A stretch of 9,955 bases of DNA from Pseudomonadota bacterium (lineage in GTDB: Bacteria > Pseudomonadota > Alphaproteobacteria > Acetobacterales > Acetobacteraceae), in NCBI GenBank assembly GCA_021828605.1, contig JAJZEG010000086.1, forward strand, positions 1 to 9,955, in the 5' to 3' direction. Each line of letters begins with the position of its first letter. The first letter of the stretch is position 1. A model generated the notes under the pieces. The model did not search any database. It was not told where the DNA came from and saw nothing but the letters and a program-made list of their open reading frames with translations. Both the position numbers and the translations under genes were made by a program. Positions 1 through 8,296 of this stretch are shown piece by piece.

Positions 1-343
1 AATCCATCGAGAGAAAGCGCATCGATTGGTTGCGCAGCAGGGCGCCGGGGAGCAGCTGGGCTTCGGTGAGGATTTGAAAGCCGTTGCAGACACCGAGCAC
101 GTAGCCGCCGCGCGCGGCGTGGTCGGCGATGGCGCGCATGATCGGCGATTGGGCGGCCATGGCGCCCGCGCGCAGATAATCGCCATAGGAAAAGCCGCCG
201 GGGATCACCACCAGATCGAGGGCGGGGAGGCTGGTTTCGCGGTGCCAGATCAGCGTGGGCTTGTGGCCGAGGCTGGATTCCAGCGCGATGGCGATGTCGC
301 GCTCGCGATTGATGCCGGGGAACAGAATAATGCCTGCTTGCAT
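1..343 (-). CDS. purQ: Phosphoribosylformylglycinamidine synthase subunit PurQ, 5' part (runs off the left edge)
   Basis: PurQ is the glutaminase subunit of FGAM synthase. It frees ammonia from glutamine for the fourth step of purine synthesis, together with PurL and PurS, in the cytoplasm. About 114 codons are present, roughly half of the usual 220-230. The protein opens [16 protein letters not shown], followed by the [14 protein letters not shown] block and the nucleophile elbow GVCNGFQ, whose Cys is the catalytic residue of class I glutamine amidotransferases. The catalytic His and Glu would lie beyond the edge. The ATG at 343 has GGAG about seven bases upstream on the minus strand. It is divergent from the permease, and the 158-bp gap between them is too short to hold purS, which often precedes purQ. 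The family assignment is very sure. Confidence 0.95.
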
Positions 344-400
344 GGTAACGCTCCGATTCCTGCGCGTCTTGCCCGGCAATGGCGGCGGGCGCAACTCATA

Positions 401-432
401 GCTGGTGTGAGGGGGGGCTGGTGTGAGGGGGG
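401..432. repeat. Perfect 16-bp tandem duplication in the purQ/permease divergent spacer
   Basis: Bases 401-416 (GCTGGTGTGAGGGGGG) are repeated without change at 417-432. Each unit ends in six G. The repeat lies between purQ and the permease, about 70 bp before the permease start. I do not recognise it as a known operator. Confidence 0.9.
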
Positions 433-501
433 TTGGTTTTTTGATTGGCAGGGCGGCGGGCATGAATTAGGGTTGTTTTAATATCATAATGGGGGGCGAT
501 T

Positions 502-1911
502 ATGGGCGTTGTGACATCCGAGCATCGGCTGGAGCGTGGGGCGCTGGGGTTGGGGCAGATTGTGGCCTCGACTTTGGCGAATATTGCGCCCGCCATGAGC
601 TTTTTCTTTGGGTTCGGGTTGATTGTCAGTGGGGCCGGGGTGGCGGCGCCGTTGACGATTTTGGTGGCGATGGTGGTAATTTTGTTTTTGACCAACACGC
701 TGGCGGAATTTTCGCGCTATCGGCCTTCGACCGGGAGTTTTGTGACCTTTATTGGCATGGCGTTCGGGCCGGTGGCGGGGGCGGCGGCCTCGGTTTTTGT
801 GGTGTTTGGTTATTTGGTGGCGGCGGCGTCGGTGGTCGCGATTGCCGGTGGCTGGGCGCATGACACGCTGCACTTATTTTTGGGCATCGATGTGCCGTGG
901 CAGGTCTTGAGCGTGCTGGCGACGGTGATTGTCGGGTTTTTGGTGTCGCGCGGGGTGGCGTTATCGACCACCTGGGCGGCGGTGTTTTTCTATTTCGAGT
1001 TGGCGTTGTTGCTGGTGGGGGCGGTGGTGATGCTGGTGGTTAATCGGCATCATTTGACCCTGGCGCCGTTTGAATGGAGCCATTTATCGGGCGGGTTGAA
1101 GGGGATTGGGCTTGGGTTCCCGATTGCGATTTATTTGTTCATCGGGTGGGAAAACTCGGCGACATTGGCGGAGGAGACCCGCGATGCGCGGCGCAATATT
1201 CCGCGCGCGTTGATTATTGGCACGCTGGCGATTGGGTTGCTTTATACCGTGCTGGCTTATGCGACCGAGATTGCGTTTCACACGAACGCGGCGGCGATTG
1301 GTAAATCGGCGATTCCGTTTGTGGATGCGTTCAAGATGTCGGCGGCGGGATTGTTGATTATTGTGTATTTGGCGGGGATGACCAGTATTTTTTCCTCGCT
1401 ATTGGGGCTGACCAATAGTCAGGCGCGGATTTTGTTCAATTCGGGGCGGGAGGGGTTATTGCCGGGGTTTTTCGGCAAGATCGATCCGAAGCATCGCACG
1501 CCGTCGGTCGCGATGTGGTGTTATGTGGTGGTTTCGTTGCTGATTGTGCTGGTGTTCGGGATGGGGGTGAAGCCGGTGGATTTGTTTGACGAAACTGGCT
1601 CGATGGGCACGATTCCGGTGATTATCACCTATTTGGTGACGAATTTGGCGCTGCCGGTTTACATGCTGCGCTATCATCGCGACGCGTTCAACCCGGTGCG
1701 TCATGCGGTTATTCCGCTGGCGGGGACTGGGTTGATGCTGTGGCCGCTTTGGGGCCTGGTGCAGCCGGGGCAGCCGGCGCCGTATAATTTGTTTCCGTAT
1801 ATCGCGCTGGGGGTGTTGGTGCTGTCGATTATTTATGGCGCGGTGTTGGCGCGGCGGGATCCGCAGTTGGGGGAGAAGATTGGGGCTTATGTGGCGGATG
1901 AGGGGGTTTGA
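502..1911 (+). CDS. APC-superfamily amino-acid permease
   Basis: This is an inner-membrane secondary transporter of the amino acid-polyamine-organocation superfamily, likely importing an amino acid or amine with protons. The 469 residues are almost wholly hydrophobic, with about twelve membrane segments, the usual number and length for the family. The N-terminal region (about residues 18-50) has the small-residue-rich first helix STLANIAPAMSFFFGFG. Around residues 213-232 is the family signature FIGWENSATLAEETRDARR, with Glu217 and the EET motif. After it, INIPRA-like text (NIPRALIIGTL) opens the next helix. The ATG at 502 has a GGGGGG ribosome-binding tract five bases upstream. The substrate cannot be read from sequence. 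It is a single-gene unit, divergent from purQ and followed by a hairpin region before the TadG-like gene. Confidence 0.9.
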   Translation: MGVVTSEHRLERGALGLGQIVASTLANIAPAMSFFFGFGLIVSGAGVAAPLTILVAMVVILFLTNTLAEFSRYRPSTGSFVTFIGMAFGPVAGAAASVFVVFGYLVAAASVVAIAGGWAHDTLHLFLGIDVPWQVLSVLATVIVGFLVSRGVALSTTWAAVFFYFELALLLVGAVVMLVVNRHHLTLAPFEWSHLSGGLKGIGLGFPIAIYLFIGWENSATLAEETRDARRNIPRALIIGTLAIGLLYTVLAYATEIAFHTNAAAIGKSAIPFVDAFKMSAAGLLIIVYLAGMTSIFSSLLGLTNSQARILFNSGREGLLPGFFGKIDPKHRTPSVAMWCYVVVSLLIVLVFGMGVKPVDLFDETGSMGTIPVIITYLVTNLALPVYMLRYHRDAFNPVRHAVIPLAGTGLMLWPLWGLVQPGQPAPYNLFPYIALGVLVLSIIYGAVLARRDPQLGEKIGAYVADEGV

Positions 1912-1920
1912 GGTGTTTTG

Positions 1921-1969
1921 TCGGCGGCCTGGATGAAACGGGCCGCCGATTGGTGCCAATTTGGTTTTT
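1921..1969 (+). terminator. Probable terminator after the permease
   Basis: A perfect 9-bp stem (1921-1929 with 1941-1949, loop 11) begins ten bases after the permease stop. A second small hairpin, ATTGG-TG-CCAAT (1949-1960), and then TTGG and five T (1965-1969) follow. The T-run follows the second stem rather than the first, so efficiency is uncertain. Confidence 0.55.
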
Positions 1970-1991
1970 ATGGATCAGATTTTGATATTTA

Positions 1992-2020
1992 TTGATATAT
2001 TAAGAATAGGTCCATATAAT
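1992..2020 (+). promoter_or_regulatory. Sigma-70-type promoter of the TadG-like gene
   Basis: A -35 box TTGATA (1992-1997) and a perfect -10 box TATAAT (2015-2020) are separated by exactly 17 bases, in an AT-rich stretch that stands out from the GC-rich surroundings. Transcription would start near 2027, giving a leader of about 34 bases before the ATG at 2061. Confidence 0.75.
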
Positions 2021-2060
2021 CGGTAGAAAGGTGGATCGATAAGGCAAAGCGAGCAAAATC

Positions 2061-3317
2061 ATGGGCAGCGTGCGCGATTGGTGCAATTTGTTGGTTGGCC
2101 TGCGGCGTGATCGGCGTGCAGCGATTAGCATTATAATGGCGCTGTCGGCGGTGGCGATCCTGGGATTTAGCGGGATGGTCGTTGATTTGGGCTTTTGGTA
2201 TGGCACGCGCGGCGGATTGCAGGCGGCGGCGGATGCGGGTGCTATGGCAGCGGCGCGCAGTCTGCCCTATGCCAGTTCACAAAACAGCGCTTATTTGCAG
2301 GCGGTGGCGCAAAATGCGGCGAACCAGGCTTCATCGACCCTGAAAACACCGCCGACTGTTACGGTTCAGGTTTCGGGAGCGGGCACGAGCCGGGTGGTGA
2401 CGGTAACGGCAATGGCGCCAGAGCAGTTATTTTTTTCGGAAATTGTGGGGTATCGGGGTGGTAATATTTACGCCTCGGCGTCGGCGAGTGAATCGGGGAC
2501 GGTTTCGGCGTGCATTGTTGGGTTGGCGGCAAATAATCCTGATGCGGTGCTGATCAATGACACGGCGAGTACGATTAATTCGCCGAATTGTGCGGTTTAT
2601 TCGAATGGTGGGCTGTATAATAAGAACGGCACGGTGACGACGCAGGTGGTTGGCGCTGTTGGCGCGGTGGGAGGCAGTTTCGCGGCTTCGACCGACATTA
2701 TTCAAAATGGCTCGATTTTGCCTGATCCTTACGCTAATTTGGCGGCGCCGATCCTGCCGAGCGTGGCGGCGGCGGCGGTTACGACGAATGGTGTGACGAC
2801 CTATCAACCGGGTTTATATACGGGCACGTTGAGTATTGGCAGAAACTCGACTGATCAGTTTGCACCCGGCATTTATTATATTGCCAATGGCAATTTGCGG
2901 ATTAATGGCGGCGCCTCGGTTTCGGGTTCCGGGGTTACATTTTACTTCGGAGGTGCGTTGCCAGGGACCATTGATTGGAATGGTAACAGTAATTCGGTTA
3001 ATTTGTCGGCGCCGACGAGCGGGGCTTATTCCGGCATATTGATTTATCAGAGTCCGCTTGCGGCACTTGGATCGACTATTGCGTCGATCTCGGGCAATTC
3101 GACGTTTAATTTGGCGGGGGCGATGTATTTCCCGCAGACGGGAATTTATTTTAACGGCAATTCGACAACCGGGCCAACGACTGTGCAAATTCAGCCGGGG
3201 GTGGGCGTTAATGTTGTTGCGCAGACGGTTGAGGTGGGGGGTAATGCGACGATTGATACGGGTGACCCGGTTGGGACTGGGGCGAATGTTGGTGGGTCGC
3301 CGTTTTTGAGTAGTTAG
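2061..3317 (+). CDS. TadG-like pilus-assembly / surface protein
   Basis: This 418-residue envelope protein is of the type usually labelled TadG-like or Flp pilus-assembly. A basic N-terminus (RRDRRAA, residues 15-21) leads into one membrane helix (about 21-41), followed by LQAAADAGAMAAARSL (about 54-69), the alpha-helical hallmark of TadG N-terminal regions. The exported remainder is Gly/Ser/Asn-rich. It has a conserved-looking Cys pair (in SACIVG and SPNCAVY) and beta-strand repeats such as GGASVSGSGVTFYFGG, APTSGAYSGILIYQ and GAMYFPQTGIYF, which recur in this family. No von Willebrand A domain is visible, unlike long TadG proteins. The start lacks a strong Shine-Dalgarno, but the promoter upstream and the intact N-terminal helix support it. 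Its stop lies six bases from the stop of the opposing pilin gene. The molecular role is inferred. Confidence 0.8.
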   Translation: MGSVRDWCNLLVGLRRDRRAAISIIMALSAVAILGFSGMVVDLGFWYGTRGGLQAAADAGAMAAARSLPYASSQNSAYLQAVAQNAANQASSTLKTPPTVTVQVSGAGTSRVVTVTAMAPEQLFFSEIVGYRGGNIYASASASESGTVSACIVGLAANNPDAVLINDTASTINSPNCAVYSNGGLYNKNGTVTTQVVGAVGAVGGSFAASTDIIQNGSILPDPYANLAAPILPSVAAAAVTTNGVTTYQPGLYTGTLSIGRNSTDQFAPGIYYIANGNLRINGGASVSGSGVTFYFGGALPGTIDWNGNSNSVNLSAPTSGAYSGILIYQSPLAALGSTIASISGNSTFNLAGAMYFPQTGIYFNGNSTTGPTTVQIQPGVGVNVVAQTVEVGGNATIDTGDPVGTGANVGGSPFLSS

Positions 3318-3323
3318 AGGGGA

Positions 3324-3788
3324 TTACTGGACGGTGATGGTGCCGGTGATTTGGTACCGATAATCGTTACCAAACACGGGTAGGGGAACCGGCATTTTTA
3401 TGATGGCCGTCACATTATAGGTTACATTGGTTTGTGGCGTTCCGCTCGAACAGGTGCCGTTGGTGGCGGGCGTGCTTGATCCGTCCGATTGCAGGCAAGT
3501 GGTGGTGGCCGCGGGAGCCTCGGCGAGTGAAAAGGGTTCCAGGGCTGATTTGTTATCGAGGTTGATGACGTTGCCGATGCTGATGGAATTGTTGGATTGG
3601 GTTGGGTTTGCCCAGGCGAACAGGTAGATTGATTGGATCACTTGATTGGCCTGATAGCGGACGATGAGGAGAAAGAGTGAATCAAGGCAACCTGCGGTCA
3701 GGGGAAACAGAAACAGTGACACCACCAGAGCCAGTTCGACGCTAACCGATCCACGCCGGGAGCCAGGTTTGAGGTGCCATAAGCGCAT
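3324..3788 (-). CDS. TadE/TadF-like minor pilin (pseudopilin)
   Basis: This 154-residue protein has a type IV pilin-like N-terminus. A short basic leader ends in Gly13, followed by SVSVE with Glu18 at the +5 position, then a hydrophobic helix (about 19-42). That is the pattern cut by prepilin peptidase in TadE/TadF pseudopilins. The C-terminal part is Ser/Thr/Asn-rich, has two Cys (in TTCLQ and GTCSS) likely to form a disulfide outside the membrane, and ends in beta-strand-like text. The ATG at 3788 has GGAAG upstream on the minus strand. It is the second gene of a two-gene unit, 63 bases after the TadE-like gene, and it converges on the TadG-like gene with six bases between stops. The tad ATPase, platform and secretin genes are not in the window. 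Confidence 0.78.
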   Translation of the reverse strand: MRLWHLKPGSRRGSVSVELALVVSLFLFPLTAGCLDSLFLLIVRYQANQVIQSIYLFAWANPTQSNNSISIGNVINLDNKSALEPFSLAEAPAATTTCLQSDGSSTPATNGTCSSGTPQTNVTYNVTAIIKMPVPLPVFGNDYRYQITGTITVQ

Positions 3789-3815
3789 TAAATTTCGCTT
3801 CCATGCGTTATCGAT

Positions 3816-3832
3816 GGGGCCGGTGCGGCCCC
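3816..3832 (-). promoter_or_regulatory. GC-rich hairpin between the two minor-pilin genes
   Basis: GGGGCCG, GTG, CGGCCCC form a perfect 7-bp stem with a 3-base loop, within the 63-base gap between the pilin genes. No T-run follows on the minus strand. It is therefore more likely an mRNA-stability or attenuation element than a complete terminator. Confidence 0.5.
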
Positions 3833-3851
3833 GCCTAGGATGATTCTGGTG

Positions 3852-4367
3852 TTATGAAGCGGGGGCAAGCATCACCTGATCGGTGGCGGTGGCGCTAATC
3901 GGGAAGCCGTTGCCGAACAAAAAGCCGCCAATCAATGGCACCCAATTATAGTTTGCCGATACCTGCACCCACCCACCTGCGAGGCTGACAGTGGTGGAGG
4001 CCGGGCTGCAAACGGCACTCATTGAGCCGCCCCATGACATAGCGATGCTGGGCATTTGGGTTTGCGGGATGCCGGGCGTTGCGGCGCTTGTGAAAATAGA
4101 TTGAATATGGGGCTGAGTGGGACACACGGTGGCGTTGCCGACCACCGTGGGCGCGGCGGCCAACCCGTTTGAGGTTTCCACGCTGGCGGCACGGGCGGCC
4201 ACGATGACTCCCTGATTGAGGGCATAATCGGCGAGCCCTAGATATCCCAGATTGATCAAGCCAAACATAAACAAAAACAGCAGCGGGGCGCCGACGGCAA
4301 ATTCCAGCGCCGCGACGCCGCGTTGATCGATCCGCCAAGGTAGAAACTGGTTAAGACGTTGTTTCAT
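3852..4367 (-). CDS. TadE-like minor pilin (pseudopilin)
   Basis: This protein has 171 residues from the start chosen here. The basic leader MKQRLNQFLPWRIDQRG ends in Gly17, followed by VAALE with Glu22 at +5 and a long hydrophobic helix (about 23-48). This is the canonical TadE arrangement for prepilin-peptidase processing, and RGVAALEFAVGAPLL matches the TadE signature closely. The remainder is exported, with Cys residues in ATVCP and SAVCS. The frame is open to an ATG at 4421, which would add 18 residues. I prefer 4367 because the leader then has normal length and the added residues are AT-rich and carry no signal feature. Neither start has a good Shine-Dalgarno. It is the first gene of the pilin pair, and an AT-rich upstream region probably holds its promoter. 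Confidence 0.8.
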   Translation of the reverse strand: MKQRLNQFLPWRIDQRGVAALEFAVGAPLLFLFMFGLINLGYLGLADYALNQGVIVAARAASVETSNGLAAAPTVVGNATVCPTQPHIQSIFTSAATPGIPQTQMPSIAMSWGGSMSAVCSPASTTVSLAGGWVQVSANYNWVPLIGGFLFGNGFPISATATDQVMLAPAS

Positions 4368-4582
4368 GGTCAAAAATCCGATATTGTATCGTTTTTTTAG
4401 AATATACATGATCATATTCATAATGGTAGATCTATTTGAATTATGACGGATTATTTATACAGTGCGTAATTATATTACTAATGCTGTTTTAGTTAGAACA
4501 GTTTTGTTGATAAATGCTGGTTAATAGTGGGAGGCGGGATTGTTAAATGATTGAGGCGACGGGCTCGGGGTTGGCTTTTTAT

Positions 4583-4787
4583 TTCGATGATGCTCGCTCG
4601 TTTGGCGAAAAGCTCATCAAGATGTCGGTGTGCTCGGTTATAGGCTTTTGCTGGCGATGGGCGCGCTGGTGAGCCAGGGCGGGTCTGTGTGGGTGGGTCG
4701 GTCAACGGTTGGATCGCCGAGGGTTAGCAAATCATTGAGGGGGTAGCGCGAGCGGGGGATGGGTTCGGCTATGAGGAGGGCTTGATC
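4583..4787 (-). pseudogene. Remnant of a second chpSB-type toxin-antitoxin module
   Basis: On the minus strand, codons 4787-4641 read without gaps against the last 49 codons of the intact antitoxin gene at 6679-6419. By my hand alignment 28 of 49 residues are identical, including EPIPR, DPT, WLTSAP and the same stop position (4640-4638). No start codon or AbrB-type N-terminus precedes it, and an in-frame stop lies upstream. Just after it, in another frame, 4624-4583 reads HLDELFAKRASIIE, matching the last residues of the intact toxin (IMDEVRAKLAAIIE, 8 of 14). About 95 toxin codons between these parts are missing, and one extra A destroys the toxin stop. No functional product is expected. The flanks (4422-4582 and 4788-4891) hold AT-rich sequence in which I see no gene. 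Confidence 0.75.
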
Positions 4788-4891
4788 GGGGAAAGTGGTT
4801 GGTGTGTCGCTTTTGGTTGATTAATATCGTGTTTCCTGATAGATAACTGTAAATTATTTGTGTTTTCAATGATTTTTTGCCGGGAGCGCGT

Positions 4892-5179
4892 ATGCCGTTA
4901 TTTGAGGAACATTTGACTGCGTTTCGCGAATTACGCGCTTTGGCGCAACCTCAGGGGCCTGTGGGGATGGCGCCATTAGAATGGGCGGCGAGTGTGGGGT
5001 ACCATGCCGAACCCGGAAGACTCAGTAACGCTCAATTAGATCGTGGTCAGGTACGGGAATATTGTCGGCTCGAAAATGGTAATACGATTTTGGATTGCTT
5101 CGTAACGGTCATGGCCTGGGGCGGCAGAGCATTGAAATTGCCGGACCGCCAACGCGCATATAACGCTAGGGGATGTTAG
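4892..5179 (+). CDS. Small hypothetical protein, probably truncated by a frameshift
   Basis: This is a 95-residue ORF. I chose the ATG at 4892 because GGGAG lies five bases upstream; a TTG at 4877 in the same frame has no better signal. The N-terminal half is rich in charged and aromatic residues (FEEHLTAFRELRALAQ), and a hydrophobic stretch LDCFVTVMAWGG occurs near residues 67-78. The frame stops at 5177-5179. If one G of the GGGG run at 5169-5172 is removed, reading continues through DVRLRYLANLDEKKHEVLE to a stop at 5292-5294, giving about 133 residues. The VMAWGG motif loosely recalls the OGG-fold 8-oxoguanine glycosylase-like proteins of bacteria, but I can see no catalytic Lys/Asp, so I do not assign a function. 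Confidence 0.45.
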   Translation: MPLFEEHLTAFRELRALAQPQGPVGMAPLEWAASVGYHAEPGRLSNAQLDRGQVREYCRLENGNTILDCFVTVMAWGGRALKLPDRQRAYNARGC

Positions 5180-5384
5180 GTTAAGATATTTAGCGAATTT
5201 GGACGAGAAAAAGCACGAGGTGCTTGAAACTAATGGGCTTGCGTCACAGATCAGTTCGCTGGAGCCCGTTAGTCCGTCTGATCCGCTTTGTTGAGAATGC
5301 GTTATATCGCGAAACCTCGGCTTGGGAGCAGGGCGGGAATGGAGCTGGTATTTTTTATGGTCGTTGTTTCATAGGAGTTTATAG

Positions 5385-5816
5385 ATGCCGACAGACGAAG
5401 AAATTATGGAAGCCGGATTAGCTTTTGTTCGGGATCACTTCGAAAATGAGGGGTATATACTCGAAGATTATATTGATGAAGAAAGTAAATCTGAATATTA
5501 TATCAAAATGGAAGGTTGGGGTAAAATTCCTGATGGACCCGAATTCATTGCACGCAAAGATAAATGGCAGCGTTACTATGTATTAGTAAGGTCAACTGAG
5601 GAAGATAATTTTAATCGTTTAAGACTTGACGCTGAACAAGTGCAGGCTCGTAAGAAAAAAGGCGATATGTTTCTCTTGTGTTTAGTATCAAAATCACCTC
5701 ATAATTGTTGTCTATACGGTATAATTTCTGGTAATCAATTGAAAAAACGTATTATAGACATGGAAGAGCCGCAATACTACGATCTTACAGCATTACCAGA
5801 AAAATATAATCTGTAA
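5385..5816 (+). CDS. AT-rich orphan gene of unknown function
   Basis: This is a 143-residue, probably cytoplasmic protein with no signal peptide or membrane segment. The start is supported by AGGAG seven bases upstream of the ATG. It is acidic at the N-terminus (MPTDEEIMEAGLAFVRDHFE) and mixed-charge later. By direct count, 5401-5640 is about 36% GC, far below the neighbouring genes, and codons ending in A or T dominate, so recent acquisition is likely. The segment RYYVLVRSTEED followed by LDAEQVQARKKKGDMFLLCL resembles in outline the strand-helix-strand part of DUF3883-like restriction-nuclease folds (EVKST followed by a helix and then YLLYLV). The catalytic Glu and Lys would be replaced by Leu and Arg. 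That resemblance is weak and by eye only. Confidence 0.7.
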   Translation: MPTDEEIMEAGLAFVRDHFENEGYILEDYIDEESKSEYYIKMEGWGKIPDGPEFIARKDKWQRYYVLVRSTEEDNFNRLRLDAEQVQARKKKGDMFLLCLVSKSPHNCCLYGIISGNQLKKRIIDMEEPQYYDLTALPEKYNL

Positions 5817-5886
5817 CCCACTGGCATCGACCTATGTTCTTCATGTAACTGGCTGCCTTAGTTTCCCAAACCGACGTAAAGCGTGG

Positions 5887-5923
5887 AAAAAAGCCGGTCC
5901 GGCTTCCCGGATCGGCTGATTTT
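5887..5923 (-). terminator. Terminator of the displaced glnA end, likely working in both directions
   Basis: AGCCGGTCCGG (5892-5902) pairs with CCGGATCGGCT (5907-5917) over 10 of 11 positions with a 4-base loop. Six A before it (5887-5892) give a T-run on the minus strand. GATTTTT after it gives a T-run on the plus strand. It can therefore end the minus-strand toxin-antitoxin transcript and the plus-strand gene that stops at 5816. Confidence 0.75.
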
Positions 5924-5940
5924 TGGTTAGCTGGAGCAGA

Positions 5941-6069
5941 AAATTACGCGGAGTCATACATCTCGAACTCGACCGGGTGGGGGTGTGTTCGAAGCGGTAG
6001 ACTTCGCCCCATCTCAGCTCGATGTAGCTTTCGATTTGTTCTTTGCTGAACACGTCACCGGCGAGGAGG
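5941..6069. repeat. Direct repeat of the glnA 3' end, outer copy
   Basis: This is the outer partner of 6863-6992, in the same orientation, about 94% identical by hand count with one single-base gap. Homology stops abruptly at GGCGAGGAGG on the glnA-internal side. The chpSB operon occupies the space between the two copies. Confidence 0.85.
5944..6069 (-). pseudogene. Displaced duplicate of the glnA 3' end
   Basis: On the minus strand this reads [19 protein letters not shown], then [10 protein letters not shown]. This is the C-terminus of GlnA with Lys-Trp-Ser changed to Arg-Trp-Gly. One G is missing from the run at 5979-5983 (five, against six in the intact gene at 6901-6906), so the frame is lost. 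If restored, it would end FEMYDSA and a TAA stop. Against 6863-6992 I count about eight differences over about 130 bases. The mixture of silent changes and a different terminator suggests a copy from a related strain or an old displaced end rather than a fresh duplication. It lies 17 bases from the toxin stop. Confidence 0.85.
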
Positions 6070-6086
6070 GATGAGTGAAAGTCGAT

Positions 6087-6419
6087 TTATTCGATGATGG
6101 CGGCGAGTTTTGCGCGAACTTCATCCATGATGAAGGTCGGGAGTTGTTCGAGCTTACGGCCGTGGCGAGAGGCGATGTCGAGCGCGCGGGGTTGGTCGCA
6201 GCGGACAATTCCTGTGGTTTGGGTGCCCGCACCGGTGAGGGAGACGGTGAAGCCGGCGATGCGGGCAAAATTACCGCCGCTGGTGATGGGGAGCACGATC
6301 GGGGTTTTGGTCAGGCGGTTGAAGGGGCCTGGTGAGATGATGAGGACCGGGCGTTTGCCTTGTTGTTCGTGACCGATGCTGGGATCGAGGGTCACGAGAT
6401 AGATATCGCCGCGCTCCAT
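6087..6419 (-). CDS. chpB: ChpB/PemK (MazF-family) endoribonuclease toxin
   Basis: This 110-residue toxin belongs to the MazF/PemK/ChpB family, which cuts mRNA at short sequence motifs to stop growth when the antitoxin is lost. It opens MERGDIYLVTLDPSIGHEQ. Next come the GKRPVLIIS strand with the family Arg-Pro (Arg23), PITSGGNFAR (Thr46-Ser47), and TTGIVRCDQPRALD with the GRKLE block. All core motifs are present, so it is probably active. The frame is open further up to 6458, but the ATG at 6419 shares its A with the antitoxin stop (TAATG), the usual coupling in these operons. The gene downstream is only the displaced glnA fragment, whose hairpin at 5887-5917 supplies a terminator. Confidence 0.92.
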   Translation of the reverse strand: MERGDIYLVTLDPSIGHEQQGKRPVLIISPGPFNRLTKTPIVLPITSGGNFARIAGFTVSLTGAGTQTTGIVRCDQPRALDIASRHGRKLEQLPTFIMDEVRAKLAAIIE

Positions 6420-6679
6420 TACAGCACTTCGCTGCCAACCGGCGCGCTGGTGAGCCAAAGCTGATCTGTGCTGCTGGGCAGGTCGGCGGTGGGGTCGCAG
6501 AGGGCCAGCAATTCATCGAGCGTGTAGTGCAAGCGGGGGATGGGTTCGACCACCAGACGGCCCTGATCGACCGCGAGACCGATTTTTGCGCCCGCTTGAA
6601 GATGCAGCAAATCGAGCAAGGCGGGCGGAACGGCGAGCATGACCGAGCCGCCGACTTTGCGCAGGTTGGTGGTGTGCAT
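6419..6679 (-). CDS. chpS: ChpS/PemI (MazE-family) antitoxin
   Basis: This 86-residue antitoxin binds and blocks the ChpB toxin and usually represses its own operon. The N-terminal half (about 1-50: TNLRKVGGSVMLAVPPALLDLL, then LAVDQGRLVVEP) is a MazE/AbrB-type swapped-hairpin DNA-binding domain. The C-terminal half, with YTLDELLALCD (about 53-63) and WLTSAPVGSEVL, is the ChpS-type toxin-binding tail. The ATG at 6679 has GGAG seven bases upstream on the minus strand. Its stop overlaps the toxin start by one base. The promoter and an operator-like inverted repeat lie just upstream. It resembles E. coli ChpS more than MazE because of the DELLAxCD motif. Confidence 0.9.
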   Translation of the reverse strand: MHTTNLRKVGGSVMLAVPPALLDLLHLQAGAKIGLAVDQGRLVVEPIPRLHYTLDELLALCDPTADLPSSTDQLWLTSAPVGSEVL

Positions 6680-6693
6680 GGGGGTGCTCCGAA

Positions 6694-6715
6694 ATATTAT
6701 ATATAAGTATAATAT
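6694..6715. promoter_or_regulatory. Operator-like inverted repeat upstream of chpS
   Basis: ATATTATA, six bases, TATAATAT form a perfect 8-bp inverted repeat that overlaps the -10 box and lies 15 bases before the antitoxin start. Its position fits autorepression by the antitoxin's AbrB-like domain, which is usual for this family. Confidence 0.65.
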
Positions 6716-6734
6716 GAATTTGGGGGTTAGGCAA
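6706..6734 (-). promoter_or_regulatory. Sigma-70-type promoter of chpSB
   Basis: On the minus strand a -35 box TTGCCT (6734-6729) and a -10 box TATACT (6711-6706) are 17 bases apart. Transcription would begin about 20 bases before the chpS start. The -10 lies within the inverted repeat at 6694-6715. Confidence 0.65.
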
Positions 6735-6821
6735 GGGGTGGGAGACTTGAGCCTGATCGTTTGGAATTGACGCGCGATGCGCGCGGCAATGACAAGCGTT
6801 GCTCAGCCTCGCACTCTAACG

Positions 6822-6852
6822 AAAAACCGGCCCAGTTTTACCTGGGCCGGTT
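6822..6852 (-). terminator. Rho-independent terminator of glnA
   Basis: AACCGGCCCAG (6825-6835) and CTGGGCCGGTT (6842-6852) form a perfect 11-bp stem with a 6-base loop. The AAAAA at 6822-6826 becomes a T-run on the minus strand. It begins 13 bases past the glnA stop. Confidence 0.9.
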
Positions 6853-6862
6853 GGTCGGTGCG

Positions 6863-6992
6863 AAATCACGCGGAGTAATACATTTCGAACTCGACCGGGT
6901 GGGGGGTGTGTTCGAAGCGGTACACTTCGCTCCATTTCAGCTCGATGTAGCTCTCGATTTGTTCTTTGCTGAACACGTCACCGGCGAGGAGG
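6863..6992. repeat. Direct repeat of the glnA 3' end, intact copy
   Basis: This is the in-gene partner of 5941-6069. It covers the last 43 codons of glnA, the stop and three bases beyond. Confidence 0.85.
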
Positions 6993-8296
6993 AAGTCGTG
7001 GTCGGCGGCGAGGGCGCCGAGGGCTTCGCGGAGGCTGCCGCAGACGGTGGGGATGCCTTTGAGCTCCTCGGGGGGGAGATCGTAGAGATCCTTGTCCATC
7101 GGGTCGCCCGGATGGATTTTGTTTTTGATCCCGTCGATCCCGGCCATCGCGATGGCGGAATAAGCGAGGTACGGGTTCGCGGTGGGGTCCGGGAAGCGGA
7201 CTTCGACGCGCTTGGCTTTGGGGTTGGTGGTGTAGGGGATGCGGCAGGAGGCCGAGCGGTTGCGCGCGGAGTAGGCGAGCAGGACCGGGGCTTCGAAGCC
7301 GGGGATCAGGCGTTTGTAGCTGTTGGTGCTCGGGTTGGTGAAAGCGTTGATCGCTTTGGCATGTTTGATGATGCCGCCGATGAAATAGAGGCAGAGTTCC
7401 GAGAGATCCGCATAGCCATTGCCGGCGAACAGCGGCTTGCCGTTTTTCCAGATCGATTGGTGGGTGTGCATGCCTGAGCCGTTATCGCCATAGATCGGCT
7501 TGGGCATGAAGGTCGCGGTTTTGCCGTAGGAATGGGCGACGTTATGGACGCAATATTTGTAGATTTGCATCTGGTCGGCCATTTTGGTCAGCGTGTTGAA
7601 GCGGGTGCCCAACTCGTGCTGGCTTTGCGCGACTTCGTGATGGTGCTTTTCAATCGGCAGGCCCATTTCGCCCATGGTGGCGAGCATTTCGGCGCGCAAA
7701 TCGCTGTCGGCATCGACCGGCGGGACCGGGAAATACCCACCTTTGACGCCCGGGCGGTGGCCCATATTGCCTTCCGGGTAGTCCTTCAGCGAGGCGCCGG
7801 GGCCTTCCATACTATCGACCTGATAGGTGCCGAAATTGCCGCCGGTGCCAAAGCGGACACTGTCGAAAATGAAGAACTCGGCTTCGGCGCCGACGACGAT
7901 GCTATCGCCGATGCCGGTTGATTTCAGGTAGGATTCGACGCGCTTGGCGGTGCCGCGCGGATCGCGGGCATAGCCCATACCGGTCGAGGGTTCGATAATG
8001 TCGCAAAACAGGATCATGCTCGGCTTGGCGGCGAACGGGTCCATGACTGCGGTTTCGGGGTCGGGCATCAGAATCATGTCAGACTCATTGATGGCTTTCC
8101 AACCCGCGATCGAGGAGCCATCGAACATGATGCCGTCACGGAACGCATCGGCGTCCATGGTGGAAATATGCTGGGCGGTGTGCTGCCATTTGCCGCGCGG
8201 ATCGGTGAAGCGGAGATCGACATATTCCACGCCGTTCTCTTTGATCATGTCCAACGCTTTGCTGATTGCATCGCCGGTTGCGGGCTTTTTCGCCAT
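6866..8296 (-). CDS. glnA: Glutamine synthetase type I
   Basis: This enzyme joins ammonia to glutamate with ATP and is the main ammonia-assimilation step; it acts as a cytoplasmic dodecamer. It has 476 residues, the normal GSI length. Visible motifs are [10 protein letters not shown] (latch region, about 57-66), [11 protein letters not shown] with metal ligands Glu138 and Glu140, [28 protein letters not shown] with the ATP/metal His, [13 protein letters not shown], and NRSASCRIP. Tyr405 in LYDLPPEE is the adenylylation site, so it is probably controlled by GlnE and PII. The ATG at 8296 has GGGAGAG upstream. It lies 107 bases after glnB, probably in one operon, and ends in a strong terminator. 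Its last 43 codons are duplicated outside the gene, with the toxin-antitoxin operon between the copies. Confidence 0.98.

Follow-up and report, generated by a model that had tools for sequence, protein, structure and literature searches.

How does a toxin–antitoxin operon come to lie between two copies of the end of the same housekeeping gene? The question is raised by a window of 9,955 nucleotides (the whole stretch of DNA that we analysed, from a member of the Acetobacteraceae), and it belongs to an older one, which is how toxin–antitoxin pairs enter chromosomes without a transposase. The answers so far have been plasmids, prophages and integron cassettes; for restriction-modification genes there is another, insertion with long target duplication. 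In the window, glnA (6866..8296, minus strand) is an intact frame of 476 amino acids (TIGR00653, 656.8 bits against a cut-off of 429), and a second, outer copy of its last 127 nt, stop codon included (6866-6992), lies at 5944..6069 on the minus strand; this copy has the same orientation, is 126 nt long and differs by seven substitutions and one deleted base. Over 125 aligned positions, the first shared base not being counted, 118 are identical, and the one C absent from the outer copy puts that copy out of frame. No difference falls in the first 39 nt of the shared block; all eight lie in the remainder. At 6069 and 6992 the homology stops: upstream of the block the two copies agree at 4 of 10, 7 of 20 and 12 of 30 bases, as unrelated sequences would, and the outer fragment has no extension past it. 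A 70-amino-acid open reading frame across the outer copy matched one GlnA fragment in a protein search (88% over 36%). The initial annotation of this DNA had described just such a duplication, with about eight differences, an inner copy completing a working glnA and an outer copy that is frameshifted and has another terminator, and all of this is borne out. A terminator-like hairpin, T1, follows the inner end (6825..6852, minus strand), and a separate and different one, T2, follows the outer copy, where it is found on both strands (plus 5892-5917, minus 5898-5911); the region holds three such sites against 1.3 expected in shuffles. Nor does the outer fragment continue into a full second glnA, an arrangement that would have spoken against the annotation's view of the locus.

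What lies between the two ends, as had been proposed, is chpSB, with chpB ending 17 nt from the outer block. This spacer (6070..6086, minus strand) is the novel junction of the locus, and a junction 25-mer was absent from the viral contigs searched, in which ChpS had one relative, at 58%. Both genes are intact open frames, co-directional on the minus strand and with the antitoxin gene upstream: chpS (6419..6679) encodes an antitoxin of 86 amino acids (Kis/PemI/MazE-like), chpB (6087..6419) a toxin of 110 amino acids (Kid/PemK mRNA-interferase family), and the chpB ATG overlaps the chpS stop by one base. ChpB, for which the queries spanned 6087-6422 and were thus one codon longer at the start than the 110-amino-acid frame, carries a PemK_toxin domain (PF02452, 100.6 bits, cut-off 23.1, E 7.1e-29) and has Kid as its best relative of known structure (chain 1m1f, E 1.3e-44); against the ChpB equivalog NF007320 it scores 110.8 bits, below the curated cut-off of 129. 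ChpS matched no Pfam family, and the NCBIfam models for ChpS and MazE match it below their curated cut-offs (NF052488, 61 bits; NF008463, 40 bits). From these matches we predict that chpSB functions as an mRNA interferase of the Kid/PemK type together with a Kis-like antitoxin. It resembles the Kis/Kid (PemIK) and ChpSB type II systems in its 110-amino-acid toxin, its antitoxin-first order and its one-base overlap, and differs from them in its place behind glnA and in falling below the NCBIfam equivalog cut-offs for ChpB, ChpS and MazEF. Upstream of chpS a promoter-like site (6706..6734, minus strand) was recognised by consensus match, at 9 of 12 positions, and is the sole site found against 0.3 expected.

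Between T1 and chpS there is also an imperfect palindrome of 67 bp (6746..6812; fold z -2.1), which has a 93% identical copy at a different locus of the nearest relative (G386, L124 1501-1567) and is present in one of 13 congeners. An Rfam scan of the window, palindrome included, gave no family at gathering scores. We considered whether the palindrome might be an integron attC site and rejected the idea, because its ends, judged by eye against the core-site consensus, do not fit.

Might the operon have arrived on a circle? Toxins of the ChpB type are common on plasmids, PemK-like matches being found in at least 5000 of 72,556 plasmid records (the best among the matches listed, from Xanthomonas, has 80% identity). 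A Campbell-type integration, in which circular DNA carrying a glnA end and chpSB entered by a single crossover, would directly yield the direct repeat that we see. Such a circle would, however, be about 923 bp long and lack replication genes, and its entry would leave unexplained the remains of an older operon at the same place, which we describe next, so that we give this route very little credence.

The picture of an operon trapped between two gene ends proved to be incomplete, because roughly 1.1 kb past the outer glnA copy lies a wrecked relative of chpSB in the same orientation as the intact operon. This relic (4583..4800, minus strand) retains the closing portion of chpS together with the two ends of chpB, whose interior is absent: an ungapped block of 169 nt (4620-4788, the end of chpS and the start of chpB) is 73% identical to 6401-6569, and the end of chpB recurs at 4583-4618 with 72% identity. 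Its local alignment score is 202, and the best of 200 dinucleotide shuffles reached 112. Whom does the relic resemble most? Its identity to the chpSB of the window is 73.4% over all 169 positions, against 61.8% of 157 aligned positions for G191 and 61.9% of 160 for G159, while three further genomes gave short local matches only (G222, 72.9% of 48; G170, 69.4% of 62; G195, 63.2% of 68). Relic and window chpS share an extra codon that G191, G159 and G222 do not have. G191 and G159 share a base that differs from the window at 32 sites, and of these the relic sides with the window at 19, with G191 and G159 at nine and with neither at four. Judging by these comparisons, the relic and the intact chpSB belong to one sub-lineage. 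In the genomes analysed here PemK-like toxins are rare, which makes it improbable that two related ones landed independently within 1.8 kb of each other; DNA relatives of chpSB (E <= 1.5e-13) occur in at least 17 of 397 family genomes, the number being a minimum since scoring was confined to one or two candidates in each genome, and protein relatives (E <= 1e-20) in 6 of 385 genomes of the class. With the old relic beyond the outer end, the operon between two ends becomes a recurring unit, glnA end plus chpSB, which is present twice, with the outer version dead.

Read along the minus strand, the locus is therefore ordered as glnA end, T1, 67-bp element, chpSB, outer glnA end, T2, an AT-rich insert and the chpSB relic, and the distance from the glnA stop to the matching position in chpS is 297 nt in the inner unit and 1156 nt in the outer. 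GC content, elsewhere about 0.6, is down to 0.36 within the insert, whose recognisable contents lie on the plus strand, opposite to glnA and chpSB: a fragment with a weak OGG-like domain match (4892..5179; 20.2 bits, cut-off 27) and an orphan open reading frame of 143 amino acids, orf143 (5385..5816). The OGG-like fragment lies ahead of orf143 and is apparently truncated. For orf143, plasmids and phages yielded no relatives and the protein search only its own cluster; it is encoded on five contigs, of which the 9,955-base contig of the window is the longest.

Two glnA ends and two operons, alike in order and orientation and with the outer members broken, naturally suggest an in-situ tandem duplication, and this is an idea that we have taken seriously. 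Unequal crossing-over would have doubled a segment of glnA end, terminator and chpSB, after which the outer unit decayed and gene conversion homogenised the ends. Besides the shared layout, the common sub-lineage of relic and operon agrees with this, as does a tree of 53 sequences that groups the inner and outer coding ends as sisters (with a UFBoot of 87 for the split). A duplication without gene conversion, however, predicts even divergence along the unit, whereas the operons differ at 45 of 169 positions (27%) and the glnA ends at 7 of 125 (6%; Fisher p 1.9e-6). The two ends have a pS of 0.13 (3 of 22.8 sites), compared with 0.278 over the whole gene and 0.336 in the end stretch between the glnA of the window and that of G386, and the 27% separating the operons is about the raw synonymous glnA divergence of that pair. 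The terminators differ as well, and the sequence behind the inner stop is nearer to that of other species than to the outer copy: past the stop codon, inner and outer compare at z 3.2 and inner with G386 and G268 at z 7.6 and 7.9, all post-stop z values being inflated because the hairpins share their form. The outer post-stop sequence compares with the same two genomes at z 5.1 and 5.5, and its best match is the more distant G349 (z 7.2); the slices from G349 and G159 start up to 3 bases off the stop, which has no bearing on the figures given for G386, G268 and the inner and outer copies. Finally, the window repeats listed include no 67-bp element in the outer unit. Unequal divergence together with such strong post-stop differences means that a simple tandem duplication, with no gene conversion, does not explain the locus, and we reject it; the fuller version, with gene conversion added, we consider unlikely.

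We favour another explanation, which we regard as probable by a narrow measure: that recombination with the corresponding locus of a relative inserted a segment carrying chpSB behind glnA and displaced the resident end and its old operon downstream. We infer this event from one contig. Donor and resident would both have carried chpSB behind glnA. On the glnA side the crossover would have been homologous, leaving glnA intact and giving it a new terminator; on the other side, an illegitimate joint would have linked a position 17 nt past chpB with one lying about 126 nt short of the resident gene's end, which would create the direct repeat. A joint of this non-homologous kind is needed because donor DNA was, on this account, added and the resident kept. 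The displaced glnA end would then have lost one base, the old chpSB would have decayed, and the AT-rich insert with its OGG-like fragment and orf143 would have come to separate it from the outer glnA end. The coding ends would be alike because they are mostly the resident's own on both sides, and the sequences past them unlike because they derive from two lineages, so that one event, with the exchange inside the coding end of glnA, would account at once for low divergence in the ends and high divergence in the operons and behind the stops. Sister coding ends combined with an inner post-stop sequence near G386 and G268 are as expected from a crossover inside glnA. It could be, instead, that gene conversion has kept the glnA ends alike. 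A block scan along glnA gave no clear breakpoint, and the 126-bp comparison holds few informative sites; the outer copy has GGC, GTC and TAA in common with G386 and G268, where the inner copy does not, and on the question of which end is the resident one the site and post-stop evidence seems to point both ways.

What do the relatives say? Among 397 family genomes, a sample drawn from a larger group, the nearest glnA genes are those of G386 (93%), G268 (92%) and G159 (88%). The glnA end has a single match in 12 of 13 congeners (the genus of G386) and none in the thirteenth, G374, and chpSB was found behind glnA in none of the 13, the G386 contig ending about 1 kb after glnA and G374 offering no match at all. 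G159 has two chpSB-like stretches, both elsewhere than behind glnA, and glnA was near none of 33 loci with chpSB matches (weak matches and two larger re-extracts included, mostly with flanks of 1.5 kb). A pre-event strain or a donor type, with glnA, chpSB and a single end, was not seen in the genomes examined, which are of other species. We also scanned downstream of glnA for same-strand repeats of at least 30 bp, taking 119 loci from relatives (10 of them second extracts), dropping five with less than 800 nt downstream and detecting the window's own repeat as a control; the 114 testable loci, with a median downstream length of 9974 nt (only about 1.5 kb in those from the glnA search of the 397 family genomes), contained no duplicated glnA end.

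This result bears directly on the possibility, raised in the initial annotation, that an integrative element entered glnA and rebuilt its 3' end. Integrative elements and CIMEs that sit at gene 3' ends are known for inserts that rebuild the end, and the functional glnA end restored here is like them in that respect; the identical first 39 nt with all eight differences beyond would also suit an att core at the inner edge. A site-specific element, or a CIME-like remnant, would by now have lost its integrase, since no recombinase was found among the window proteins scanned (a subset of the open reading frames), and it would sit oddly with the absence of site duplications from all 114 loci. We find no support for this reading and think it most improbable. 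The annotation had rated a recombination bringing glnA end and chpSB from a relative as an equally good account; that account does fit the data and indeed fits better, because divergence is low only in the glnA coding anchor and high behind the stops and in the operons.

Could the locus simply be an assembly chimera, in which two co-existing strains, one with and one without chpSB, were joined at the glnA end? The arrangement is seen in a single contig of 9955 bases, and the two ends differ in the way that alleles might. Against this, a chimera would require two sequences to be joined after chpB at a place where they agree at 4 of 10 bases and have no homology in common, and an assembler should make no join without shared words. 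A ChpB 99% identical to that of the window is encoded, moreover, on another contig of 1460 bases (a match of the proteins alone). An artefact of this sort strikes us as very unlikely.

The recombination that we favour has instructive precedents, and the nearest is insertion with long target duplication, a form described for restriction-modification genes in the passages of PMC3031569 and PMC1643837 that deal with it, and going back to Nobusato et al. 2000 as described or cited in PMC1643837, PMC2654758 and PMC3031569. As outlined there, the likeness lies in an addiction-type operon between long direct target repeats (here of 126 nt), in relatives with a single target (here other species with differing downstream genes) and in the want of any recombinase found at the locus. 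The differences are that the cargo here is a PemIK-like toxin–antitoxin pair and not a restriction-modification system, that it is a housekeeping gene whose end serves as the target, and that an older related operon lies past the repeat. A second parallel is provided by the effector-immunity arrays of the Vibrio cholerae type VI secretion system, for which the relevant section of PMC5361080 invokes homology-facilitated illegitimate recombination: there too, a new module is added at an upstream homologous anchor, and a displaced 3' end and an old partner gene are left downstream, as are the outer glnA end and the chpSB relic here. The anchor in our locus is glnA, which is outside the toxin, the modules look like intracellular toxin–antitoxin pairs, the old module is dead, and no donor or intermediate arrangement was found in the 13 congeners; in all these respects our locus is unlike the arrays as that section presents them. 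Orphan Rhs 3'-region arrays are named beside them in the same section (PMC5361080). These are similar in their strings of displaced 3' ends with old cargo included. In orphan Rhs arrays the displaced 3' end is the toxin gene's own, unlike the glnA end found here.

What we have, then, is a toxin–antitoxin pair in a footprint known from restriction-modification genes, anchored on a housekeeping gene and followed by the dead remains of a predecessor from its own sub-lineage, and a narrow search of the literature met no toxin–antitoxin pair with a gene-end duplication. It is tempting to go further and to suppose that the glnA 3' end is a reusable anchor for serial turnover, each addiction unit bringing its own glnA tail and terminator, keeping glnA intact and displacing the previous unit to die, so that a dated stack would build up with no dedicated recombinase; this is a speculative proposal, and we would be somewhat surprised to see it hold. 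Should the arrangement at this locus itself be confirmed, the succession of toxin–antitoxin units would become testable: the state of decay of a unit's gene tail could serve to date it, and a search for the pattern of gene, toxin–antitoxin pair and broken gene tail could be made for further anchors. Were the two glnA ends to recombine and the unit to be lost, cells would run short of antitoxin, an effect that may stabilise the insertion.

The wider neighbourhood deserves a word too. The variable interval that follows glnA is bounded at its other end by a GATase_5 gene fragment (1..405, minus strand; 91% identical in G268), which we take to be purQ-like. G268 keeps glnA and the purQ-like gene, and the 5 kb between them hold genes unrelated to those of the window (DUF347, cytochrome c, MCRA family and isochorismatase-like). 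The interval is wholly different in the two (L155 3345-8395 against 405-6846 in the window), and is possibly a hot spot of exchange. An amino-acid permease gene of the window (502-1911) has two matches in G386, both at 83% (C64 4963-6364 and C157 1766-3156), one of which shares its contig with the purQ-like match.

Are direct repeats then a general feature of such operons? The closest chpSB by DNA, that of G191 (73%), is flanked by 26-bp direct repeats of 96% identity (L126 1407-1432 and 2129-2154), one of which begins 3 nt past the chpB stop, and the 3.2-Mb genome, searched with up to 2 mismatches allowed, has just two occurrences of their 22-bp core, which is suggestive of an entry of similar kind. 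In a test of 25 toxin–antitoxin loci, the window included and four loci with an arm below 600 nt kept, only the window (196 bits) and the G191 locus (43.7 bits) exceeded the controls, namely 600 cross-locus pairs with a maximum of 37.4 bits and one pair at or above 35; the third-best locus reached 26.5 bits, and the other 23 show nothing above control. With 2 of 25 loci above control, we reject direct repeats around toxin–antitoxin pairs as a general rule. A further pair of direct repeats, 36 bp long and 94% identical, was noticed in G159 contig C8 (L111 2199-2234 and 3172-3207), where it adjoins chpSB and encloses what looks, by eye, like a vapBC pair (2382-3169).
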